This document shows, piece after piece, positions 4,225-7,477 of a DNA stretch of 64,000 nucleotides. The stretch is taken from NCBI GenBank assembly GCA_018266835.1, contig JAFDZP010000002.1, positions 967,302 through 1,031,301 of the forward strand, in the 5' to 3' direction. Source of the DNA: Bacteroidota bacterium (GTDB taxonomy: Bacteria; Bacteroidota; Ignavibacteria; Tepidaquicellales; Tepidaquicellaceae). Made by a program: the position numbers and the translations under genes. The notes beneath the pieces were generated by a model. The model was given only the letters and a program-made list of their open reading frames with translations, made no database searches and had not been told where the DNA came from. The stretch's first letter is position 1. The number at the start of each line of letters is the position of its first letter.

Positions 4225-4701
4225 CTATTTTAAAATGATTTCGGGATAGTTTGTGCAGTCCATATTGAGGAAAAAAACCTCGTTTTTACCTGTTTTTTTA
4301 TTTTGCAGAATATTACTCCAGATGTACTTCTTATCAGTTTCCGGAATATTCGATGACATCAGGTCTGATTCAGGCACAAAGTGAAATTTACCTTCGTGAA
4401 ATTCAGGCGGAACATCGTTAATTCTTTTTTTGAACTCGAAAAGAAAAACCATAATGTTTCCGATGTGAGGAAATTCCTTTTCCGTCATTATTCCAATGAG
4501 CTTCCAGTCTTCATTTTTTGATTCAATGCCGCACTCTTCATGCGCTTCGCGGACGGCGCACTCTATGGGAGATTCTGCAAGATGAACATCTAATTTTCCG
4601 CCGGGAGGAGAGAATAAACCCTTATTAGGATTTTTAATACGTTCTAACAAAAGATAATCACCGTTATCATTTTTTATGTACAGCAGTGTTGCAAGTTTCA
4701 T
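4225..4701 (-). CDS. Nudix hydrolase
   Basis: Small (158 aa) Nudix-fold pyrophosphohydrolase. The Nudix box lies at about residues 34-59: PPGGKLDVHLAES, then REAHEECGI. Seven residues separate the Gly from the first Glu, where the textbook box has five; the same two-residue expansion is familiar from GGKLDxxxGES-type members. The REx2EExG core with the metal-binding glutamates is intact. The substrate cannot be read from the sequence; an 8-oxo-dGTP or nucleoside-diphosphate role is possible. It begins 19 nt after the degenerate amidohydrolase gene and 61 nt before folE2, so is probably co-transcribed with both. Confidence 0.85.
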   Translation of the reverse strand: MKLATLLYIKNDNGDYLLLERIKNPNKGLFSPPGGKLDVHLAESPIECAVREAHEECGIESKNEDWKLIGIMTEKEFPHIGNIMVFLFEFKKRINDVPPEFHEGKFHFVPESDLMSSNIPETDKKYIWSNILQNKKTGKNEVFFLNMDCTNYPEIILK

Positions 4702-4720: not shown

Positions 4721-6508
4721 CTATTTATCGTCACTGAATCCGAAACGAAGTTTTACTTTTTTAAACTGCGGCTCTTTAGGTTTTTGTGTTTCTTCATGTG
4801 AATCTGTATTTCTTATCACAGGTTTTTCTCTGACCGGTTCTTTCGGATTCTCATCTCTTCTTTCTTTTGTTTCAGCAGCAAGAGTTTCTTCTTCATCAAA
4901 AGAAATTTTCTTTGGAGAAAATTTCACACCTTCTTTTGTTAAAGGATGGGGAGTTATTTGTTCTTCTTCAATTGTTAAGAAATTAAAATCTGAATCATAC
5001 GAATCTATATAGGATAACGAATTGACCGAACCCGGTAAAAATGAATTATCTATCGGCTGCAGTACATCATCGCTTTCTTTTTTTACTACTCTGAACTCTT
5101 CTCCGAATTCGACTAATAATTCTTTCTGTGTCTCTTCAAGTCCACCGCTTACATAGGGATTATCAAATATTTCTTCGTTAATATTTTCGTGTCTCTTAAA
5201 ATGTTTCTGCTTCTCGGCATACTCGTGGTAATTACCTGCTTTATAAATCTCATTGCTGATCTCTGATGCAGTCTTTAACGGATTGAAATCTAATTTTAAT
5301 TCTACATTATAATCTTTTACTTCGAAGTTTCCGTTAATAATTACGTCAGATATATTTTCAGAATTTAAATTCTCAATTATATACTCTGAAATTTTTTCCG
5401 AATCAATTTCAGGGAATGCAGCAAAGGAATTAAATTTATTTAAATCGAAAAATACAAAATTGGCCAGCTTATTCTTTTCAATTGAGCCTGTGAGATTAGA
5501 TATACCCTGCGCATAAGCACCGTTAAGAGAAATCATTTTCAAAAGAGGCTCATAGTTTCTGATGTTCTTTGAGCATAGGGAAGAAATTAACTTTATCTCT
5601 GAGAATACATTTTTCCCTGTGAATCCCGTACCAATGCTTACATTTAAATCTGAATAAATAAAATTTCTGAAATCAAAATTCCTCGGGTAAAAATTCACAA
5701 TATCAGATGGAGAGAGCACAACGTTCGTAGATGTTGAATTTAAAACATCGAACTCATTCTTACTCAGATAAATAGGATTGGAAAGTATAGTTGACTGTGT
5801 TAAAAGATTATAATCTTTCAGCACATATATCAGAGATTTTCTGAATAAATCCTTTATCTCAGTTAAATCTTTTTCACTCTGATAAACTTCTAAAAACAAT
5901 TTTACATCGGCTGAGTTAGTCAGGTTCTTCAGATTATTTACCAGATACATATTAATTTGCTCATCTCCTCTTACTCCCGAAAAACTTTTTGCATCTATGG
6001 GGGCATTTGCTGATTTGTTGTTTTCATAATCAACAAGATTCACCGTCATGTTTGAACCGTTCAACGCGTCATCTAACTGTTCGTGATTTATATCACCTGA
6101 TGATTCAATTACATTTACCTCTCCTGCGCAAATCGATTTTAAATAATTGACCTTAAAAATATTTTTTCTTTTCGGAACGTTTTCAACGAGATACAAATAC
6201 TTATCAATCGTCTGCAAAGCAGGATTTTCTTTTAAACTTTCAAACGTACACTTCTTAAAAAATAATTTATTAAGTGAAAATGTTGAGTAGCAATTGGAGT
6301 TTATAAATCCGGGCACAATAATTTTATTCTGCGCATCTATAAGCTTAGTCTGCGGATACCTGTCAATAAATTTCCCTATTTCAAATCTGTTATCAAAATC
6401 AATCTCAACAATCTTATTATTTTTTATAACAATCGTATGTATGCCTGCTCTTCCCTGCCTGTCAAGAGTCAGCACTATTCCGTTCTTAATTATTATAAAG
6501 CTATCCAT
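4721..6508 (-). CDS. catalytically degenerate amidohydrolase-like protein with charged C-terminal tail
   Basis: 595-residue cytoplasmic protein with the scaffold of the amidohydrolase/chlorohydrolase family (MtaD/SsnA type): N-terminal beta-sandwich strand IIIKNGIVLTLD, then VPGFIN at the usual place, and a C-terminal NGAYAQGI...GSIEKNKLANFVFFDL segment that matches the end of the barrel. The catalytic residues I could align are gone. The HxH after PGFIN is N72-C-Y74, the downstream Lx(H)xxxL region has no His, and the GTDG aspartate motif is SIGTGFTG. Residues from about 445 to 595 form an extra tail rich in Glu, Lys and Pro that is not part of the family. The frame is uninterrupted, so this looks like a maintained pseudoenzyme rather than a decaying gene. 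It follows the asparaginase by 9 nt and precedes the Nudix gene by 19 nt. Confidence 0.75.
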   Translation of the reverse strand: MDSFIIIKNGIVLTLDRQGRAGIHTIVIKNNKIVEIDFDNRFEIGKFIDRYPQTKLIDAQNKIIVPGFINSNCYSTFSLNKLFFKKCTFESLKENPALQTIDKYLYLVENVPKRKNIFKVNYLKSICAGEVNVIESSGDINHEQLDDALNGSNMTVNLVDYENNKSANAPIDAKSFSGVRGDEQINMYLVNNLKNLTNSADVKLFLEVYQSEKDLTEIKDLFRKSLIYVLKDYNLLTQSTILSNPIYLSKNEFDVLNSTSTNVVLSPSDIVNFYPRNFDFRNFIYSDLNVSIGTGFTGKNVFSEIKLISSLCSKNIRNYEPLLKMISLNGAYAQGISNLTGSIEKNKLANFVFFDLNKFNSFAAFPEIDSEKISEYIIENLNSENISDVIINGNFEVKDYNVELKLDFNPLKTASEISNEIYKAGNYHEYAEKQKHFKRHENINEEIFDNPYVSGGLEETQKELLVEFGEEFRVVKKESDDVLQPIDNSFLPGSVNSLSYIDSYDSDFNFLTIEEEQITPHPLTKEGVKFSPKKISFDEEETLAAETKERRDENPKEPVREKPVIRNTDSHEETQKPKEPQFKKVKLRFGFSDDK

Positions 6509-6517
6509 ACTGTAAAA

Positions 6518-7477
6518 TTATAAATCTTCTATTGTAAAATCTTCATCAAGATAATTTTGCGCCTGTATAAGCTGGTTACCTTTCTGATTATATACTGCAT
6601 ATTCAAATCCTTTTCTCACACTGTATGCGCCGTACTCGCCTTTTACGTTCAACGCAACAAATCCCACCTGAAAAATGTGGTCGCGGTTTTTACTCGAAAG
6701 CAAATTCAACTTCACAACTCTTTCGCATGCAATTTTGCACGCTTCCATAGGAGAAATTCCTAATCGCATATACTCCACAATTAAAAAAGAACCGCATGCC
6801 CTTATACATTCTTCCCCTCTGCCTGTTGATGCTGCCCCGCCAACTTCGCCGTCAACATAAAGTCCGCTTCCGGGAATAGGACTATCACCGACTCTGCCAT
6901 GTAATTTCCACGCCATACCTGAAGTTGTGCATGATGCCGATATATGTCCGTCTTTATCAATTGCAACCATTCCGATTGTATCATGATTGCCGTCTTCATT
7001 TATCGAATCAGCTTTTCTTTTCAGTATGGAAAAATCATCGGTATGAATTTCTTCTGCGTTTTCACCACCCGATGCCTTCCATTCGTTAAATCTTCTTAAT
7101 GAATTTTCCGTCAGAAGATTTTCAGCCTCATAACCGTTTTTTAAGGCAAACTCAAATGCGCCGTCTCCGGCTAAAATTGTATGCTCAGTATCTTCTAGAA
7201 CTTTTCTTGCCAGTGAGATCGGATTCTTAATATTCTCTACACAAATCACTGCGCCTATGCGCGCTTTCCAATCCATAATAGCAGCATCAAGAGTCACTCT
7301 TCCCGCTGCATCGGGCAATCCGCCATAGCCGACGCTCAAAACAGTCGGGTCGTTTTCAGAAACTTTTACTCCTTCTTCAACTGCATCGAGAGAATTTCCT
7401 CCGTTCTTTAAAACCTGATAAGCGGCATCATTCGCTGCTAATCCGTGTTTCCATGTTGATATTACAAGTGGCTTCAA
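6518..7477 (-). CDS. N4-(beta-N-acetylglucosaminyl)-L-asparaginase / isoaspartyl peptidase family Ntn-hydrolase
   Basis: Ntn-hydrolase of the glycosylasparaginase family, which self-cleaves to expose an N-terminal threonine and hydrolyses Asn-linked GlcNAc or beta-aspartyl bonds. The autoprocessing site is GNHDTIGM, with T167 as predicted nucleophile; the beta subunit then carries SGMAWKLHGRVGDSPIPGSG and a STGRGE glycine-rich turn. The N-terminus (MKPLVISTWKHGLAAND) is that of the mature enzyme, with no signal peptide, so it is predicted cytoplasmic. At 319 aa it is normal for the family. It is 26 nt after the esterase and 9 nt before the amidohydrolase-like gene, suggesting an operon. True substrate (glycoasparagine or isoaspartyl dipeptide) is undecided. 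Confidence 0.88.
   Translation of the reverse strand: MKPLVISTWKHGLAANDAAYQVLKNGGNSLDAVEEGVKVSENDPTVLSVGYGGLPDAAGRVTLDAAIMDWKARIGAVICVENIKNPISLARKVLEDTEHTILAGDGAFEFALKNGYEAENLLTENSLRRFNEWKASGGENAEEIHTDDFSILKRKADSINEDGNHDTIGMVAIDKDGHISASCTTSGMAWKLHGRVGDSPIPGSGLYVDGEVGGAASTGRGEECIRACGSFLIVEYMRLGISPMEACKIACERVVKLNLLSSKNRDHIFQVGFVALNVKGEYGAYSVRKGFEYAVYNQKGNQLIQAQNYLDEDFTIEDL

Follow-up and report, generated by a model that had tools for sequence, protein, structure and literature searches.

A predicted amidohydrolase pseudoenzyme of Ignavibacteria with fixed metal-ligand losses and a conserved C-terminal peptide

Amidohydrolase pseudoenzymes are already known as a kind, and those described in the superfamily are single cases, the CRMP/DPYSL proteins of animals and the pseudo-dihydroorotase (pDHO) of Pseudomonas. 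The vertebrate CRMPs act by protein binding, and CRMP/DPYSL proteins carry a disordered C-terminal tail. They belong to the dihydropyrimidinase branch and have an amidohydrolase fold without the zinc-coordinating histidines, His69 and His248 of DHPase not being conserved in CRMP (PMC7325199). pDHO, a dihydroorotase relative, is an inactive chain of the Pseudomonas ATCase complex and is necessary for ATCase activity (PMC7053772). In the open-licence literature we found no description of such a pseudoenzyme from Ignavibacteria or in connection with an isoaspartyl peptidase. Here we analyze a gene from a 64,000-nucleotide stretch of Ignavibacteria DNA (the whole stretch is referred to as the window), whose product shares with the CRMPs the loss of the metal-binding histidines and, as a probably inactive chain whose gene is paired with that of an intact enzyme, parallels pDHO. 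It differs from the CRMPs, which are eukaryotic and have an unrelated tail, in that the C-terminal peptide of its family predates the ligand loss, and from pDHO in being an MtaD/SsnA-type protein beside an Ntn-hydrolase isoaspartyl peptidase, a pairing seen at the level of the genes. The family forms a separate bacterial MtaD/SsnA branch in which the C-terminal peptide is universal and ligands were lost repeatedly. Within a single bacterial class, the sites range from intact through partly lost to completely lost, the last several times independently, and the peptide is present throughout. Such a series allows a test of whether a non-catalytic second function preceded the changes in the active site and made them possible.

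An ATG opens the gene, and gaps of 9 and 19 nt separate it from its upstream and downstream neighbors, respectively (Table 1), in agreement with the original prediction, made from the DNA letters, of an intact 595-codon frame between closely spaced genes. Its product matches Pfam Amidohydro_1 (E 2.4e-10), NCBIfam SsnA (E 5e-22) and, by sequence, PDB 3lnp (E 4e-07). Against the NCBIfam equivalogs for SsnA, MtaD and 5'-deoxyadenosine deaminase, the best score, 78 bits with the SsnA model, falls below the curated cut-off of 444. A monomer was modeled with AlphaFold2 from an alignment of 72 family members. Residues 1-440 form an N-terminal beta-sandwich and a TIM barrel, with pLDDT above 90 at most positions, and the best superposition of the model was on 4gbd_B (Z 43.9, rmsd 2.3 over 404 residues). 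The model thus has the two-domain fold of MtaD/SsnA-type amidohydrolases and superposes on adenosine-deaminase-type members, and the MtaD/SsnA-type scaffold that had been proposed is borne out. In comparison with the MtaD/SsnA/TRZ-ATZ-type enzymes (adenosine deaminase homologs, PDB 4gbd, 4dyk and 3lnp), the two-domain fold is common over residues 2-423 and the motifs follow in the same order. Unlike these enzymes, the window protein is devoid of the HxH, the beta-5 and beta-6 histidines, the beta-8 aspartate and the glutamate of HxxE, and has an additional disordered tail of 147 residues with a C-terminal peptide.

Table 1 Coordinates of the features in the window, with the basis of each assignment.
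Feature	Position	Strand	Basis or remark
Pseudo-amidohydrolase gene, 595 aa	4721..6508	(-)	ORF; Pfam/NCBIfam/PDB matches; AlphaFold2 model; 4gbd_B superposition
N72-C73-Y74 in place of the HxH metal site, drifting among orthologs	6287..6295	(-)	Alignment to intact homologs (HYH); conservation ranks
Former beta-5 His, now E207	5888..5890	(-)	Among 35 orthologs, E in 31, D in 3 and N in 1
N244 (34/35) in place of the beta-6 His, then invariant P245	5774..5779	(-)	Ortholog alignment
D269, invariant in ligand-less orthologs (35/35)	5702..5704	(-)	83% of intact homologs have Ser
Invariant G295 in place of the beta-8 Asp of GTD, and invariant G298 (GTGFTG)	5615..5626	(-)	Ortholog alignment
Glu/Lys/Pro-rich tail of 147 aa (residues 449-595), predicted disordered	4724..5164	(-)	pLDDT, composition
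Mid-tail motif EFRV (E471-V474)	5087..5098	(-)	F472 invariant in 35 orthologs
C-terminal peptide core KKVKLRFGFS (583-592)	4733..4762	(-)	Family conservation; pattern search of 119 genomes
NUDIX hydrolase gene	4225..4701	(-)	19 nt downstream of the pseudo-amidohydrolase gene; neighbor in part of the family only
AspG, Asparaginase_2 (isoaspartyl peptidase type) gene	6518..7477	(-)	Immediate upstream neighbor; HDTIG nucleophile motif retained; no Tat signal
AspG C-terminal nonapeptide DEDFTIEDL	6521..6547	(-)	Confined to the lineage whose AspG is paired with the ligand-less protein

Alignment to intact homologs placed N72, Y74, E207, N244 and G295 at the five metal-ligand positions, none of which is a ligand. 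The GTD of amidohydrolases corresponds to G293-T294-G295, and the N-C-Y in place of HxH, the missing barrel histidine and the GTGF in place of GTDG that had been read from the DNA are exact. The general-base glutamate of HxxE is also gone, position 210 being unconserved in the barrel columns of the ligand-less orthologs.

Members of the family were sought among 59 relatives and in 391 genomes of the class; nearly all genomes are metagenome-assembled. Trees were built by a quick maximum-likelihood method. Full-length members were found in five families of the class, f1 (to which the window belongs), f2, f4, f8 and f13; none turned up outside the class when 395 genomes of the phylum were searched, the best outside match being without the tail peptide. 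A tail-less full-length match from another class (L149) has no peptide and normal motifs and was rejected as a member. Ordinary SsnA-type matches in the 391 genomes reached at most 127 bits and were confined to the second half of the barrel. The window genome has one match at E <= 1e-20, which rules out a recent decaying duplicate beside an active paralog; its second protein match is a remote 419-residue hydrolase frame (E 2.7e-4).

In the related families f1 and f2, all 35 full-length orthologs retain 0 of the 5 ligands, and the beta-1 HxH is missing from every one. Identical losses in 35 genomes rule out chance or sequencing artefact, and the losses are old and fixed. The window protein has thus kept the fold of the amidohydrolases and lost the metal ligands, and this loss is conserved, which is how a pseudoenzyme of this superfamily is recognized. 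Such a fold would be unable to hold the catalytic zinc and hence to carry out metal-dependent hydrolysis, and we infer that the protein is metal-free and inactive. Annotations of these frames as amidohydrolase, SsnA or MtaD are accordingly to be read with care in the present genomes, as the products are probably not metal-dependent hydrolases.

The remaining families show the range of intermediate states. In f8, the beta-6 histidine is lost in 9/9 members and the aspartate in 6/9. Among the f4 and f13 homologs, 18 have all five ligands and others lack one; L109, L095 and L118 have lost three, four and five, respectively. The last two, both from f4 (L095:6283-7809 and L118:7054-8553), lost their ligands independently of the window lineage, and in their close relatives the ligands are mostly or fully retained. 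On a maximum-likelihood tree built without the ligand columns, which has long branches, the state of the site (intact or lost) changed at least four times, a count that does not depend on the root.

The 35 complete frames bear directly on whether the gene is a decaying relic that remains open by luck. Loss of all catalytic residues and the fast evolution of the middle of the tail would fit a relic, but the full-length frames are intact in 35 genomes, the former pocket has been re-fixed and the C-terminus is near-invariant (both described below), and dN/dS, taken over those pairs of ligand-less orthologs whose dS could be measured, is about 0.04-0.11 over the whole gene and 0.04-0.08 over the body (0.044 for L056/L064; 0.064 for L038/L039). 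For the window gene and that of its congener, dN was 0.128 (0.088 in the body) at a saturated dS; substitution of the AspG dS of the same pair, 1.18, gives ~0.11, to be read as a rough upper estimate. These ratios indicate that purifying selection is strong and that the gene is not decaying, and we regard a relic as highly improbable. The original prediction had itself raised the case of normal-site orthologs beside a relaxed copy; the homologs with a normal site belong to other families, and the window copy is not relaxed.

The former ligand positions have not all had the same fate. In f1 and f2, E207, N244, P245, D269, G295 and G298 take ranks between 6 and 28 in a conservation order of the 430 barrel columns. 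The two HxH positions, at ranks 247 and 253, have drifted. G295 occurs in 35/35 orthologs. The re-fixing of three ligand positions together with D269, P245 and G298 suggests a repurposed pocket, and because it occurred while HxH drifted, it argues for retained binding of a ligand or peptide and against a bare scaffold. Of the original proposal, a pseudoenzyme recruited for binding or scaffolding, the fixed losses and the low dN/dS support a pseudoenzyme under selection well, and the bare scaffold gives way. A separate observation concerns the former GTD loop, SIGTGFTGKN in the window (5603-5632) and GTGYLGKS in relatives, which is glycine-rich and resembles phosphate- or nucleotide-binding loops.

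The same columns raise the question of whether the protein is still an enzyme, with a carboxylate/amide site (E207, N244 and D269, with E135 retained) that uses Mg2+ or Ca2+ or no metal and catalyzes a different reaction. E207, N244 and D269 are nearly invariant in the 35 orthologs, the only exchanges at 207 and 244 being among E, D and N, which a metal or hydrogen-bonding site could tolerate, and D269 replaces the serine of intact homologs. However, the HxH positions have drifted freely, the general-base glutamate is lost and the beta-8 aspartate is an invariant glycine; no hybrid metal-site intermediate was recognized in the sampled genomes, and the conservation by itself also fits ligand binding. 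We therefore consider continued catalysis unlikely, and take the pocket of E207, N244-P245, D269, G295 and G298 as one that probably holds a small ligand or a peptide.

The C-terminal extension of roughly 150 Glu/Lys/Pro-rich residues that had been noted is confirmed: the tail has an E+K+P content of 33%, compared with 18% in the body, and it is predicted to be disordered, with pLDDT below 50 over most of residues 449-575. Its end is conserved. The window protein terminates in KKVKLRFGFSDDK, and so carries the KxxFGxDE peptide with the near-invariant Phe-Gly by which the subfamily is defined. The corresponding peptides are KKxKLRFGFSDD in f1, LPKNVKLKFGDD in f2, ELPKNIRKVFGEDEF in f8 and LPKxVRxxFGEDDx in f4 and f13; across the class, homologs including the 18 with all five ligands end in [LPKNIR]KVFGEDE or KKxKLRFGFxD. 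The phenylalanine and the glycine are each present in 71/72 members and, with a few barrel residues, are the best conserved positions of the family, above any metal ligand. The pattern [KR]x(1,2)FG was found near the C-terminus of 68/72 family members and of 3/736 neighboring proteins. When the coding pattern of the peptide was searched in 119 genomes of the class, it gave 13 matches, 10 in the family and 3 single ones (reversed control, 3). A general tag or degron is ruled out by this distribution, 10/13 of the matches falling in the amidohydrolase family, and the peptide is, by these counts, specific to the pseudo-amidohydrolase family.

Mean entropy in f1 was 0.81 bits over the last ten columns, 1.75 over the body and 2.54 over the rest of the tail. 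The terminal peptide is conserved, and the remainder of the tail varies fast. A fast-evolving tail with a conserved end would be a flexible linker carrying a docking motif; in the monomer model the peptide has a pLDDT of about 58, a weak confidence that is uninformative on docking. Homologs with an intact site have a shorter tail and the same terminal peptide, which indicates that the peptide arose before the active site was lost. Gain of the tail together with ligand loss, as first supposed, is ruled out by these intact homologs.

The gene directly upstream encodes AspG. This arrangement was found in 32/35 loci of f1 and f2, 5/9 of f8 and 0/28 of f4 and f13, where the usual upstream neighbor is cysteinyl-tRNA synthetase, and 4-nt overlaps between the two genes are common. 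Flanking genes differ among f1, f2 and f8 while the pair stays together, so AspG and the pseudo-amidohydrolase constitute a conserved unit. The NUDIX and FolE2 neighbors were rejected as functional partners, since no more than a part of the f1 loci have them next to the gene. The f1 and f2 AspGs form a single clade with the C-terminal consensus [DN]E[KE][FY]xIEDL and without a Tat signal, unlike the AspGs of f8 and most relatives. In the absence of this signal both proteins of the pair should be cytoplasmic in f1 and f2. The AspG of the window (6518-7477) and those of loci L171-L201 show an apparent shift from export to the cytoplasm.

These features could mean that the pseudo-amidohydrolase is a structural or regulatory subunit specific to AspG, the two C-terminal peptides forming a complex that controls AspG maturation or activity. 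The two genes stay adjacent in f1, f2 and some of f8 although their surroundings differ, often with 4-nt overlaps, AspG lost its Tat signal and gained a conserved C-terminal peptide in exactly the lineage in which all ligands are lost, and the inactive pDHO chain that ATCase needs for its activity offers a precedent (PMC7053772). Against a dedicated subunit, genus g16 keeps the pseudo-amidohydrolase without a neighboring AspG, the f8 AspGs have Tat signals where the adjacent amidohydrolase-fold protein has none, and the C-terminal peptide predates the pairing. Its presence in f4 and f13, which have no adjacent AspG, makes AspG unlikely as the original partner of the peptide. We regard a specific AspG subunit, a narrower form of the explanation preferred below, as a tentative proposal.

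Taken together, these data lead us to favor, with moderate confidence, a cytoplasmic pseudoenzyme that acts by binding, through the pocket and the docking peptide, possibly with AspG as a partner. The pocket would bind a ligand, and the KKxKLRFGFxDD peptide at the end of the disordered tail would dock to a protein partner. Docking would be older than the ligand loss and would have been retained through at least four losses of catalysis. In the window lineage the likeliest partner would be the putatively co-transcribed AspG, which the protein might serve as pseudo-dihydroorotase serves ATCase; a partnership with AspG is itself plausible at best. A bolder version, which we consider rather doubtful, is that KxxFGxDE docking is the ancestral and essential role of this class-restricted subfamily, that catalysis was dispensable and repeatedly shed, and that remodeling of the emptied pocket (E207/N244/D269/GTGxxG) created a new site, for binding or for catalysis, that controls the relocalized isoaspartyl peptidase.

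Two further observations concern the genomic setting. In genus g16, the three loci with the pseudoenzyme and no adjacent AspG are L041, L043 and L044, so AspG is not obligatory. A more distant AspG is encoded elsewhere in two of these genomes, and no AspG match was found in the third, G016. In f4, f8 and f13 (L061, L062 and L088-L123), the amidohydrolase gene lies in a conserved run that begins with recN and cysS, followed in part of f8 by AspG, and that continues past the amidohydrolase gene with genes for an outer-membrane-like protein, a PorV/FadL-like protein, penicillin acylase, Sir2 and pyruvate kinase.
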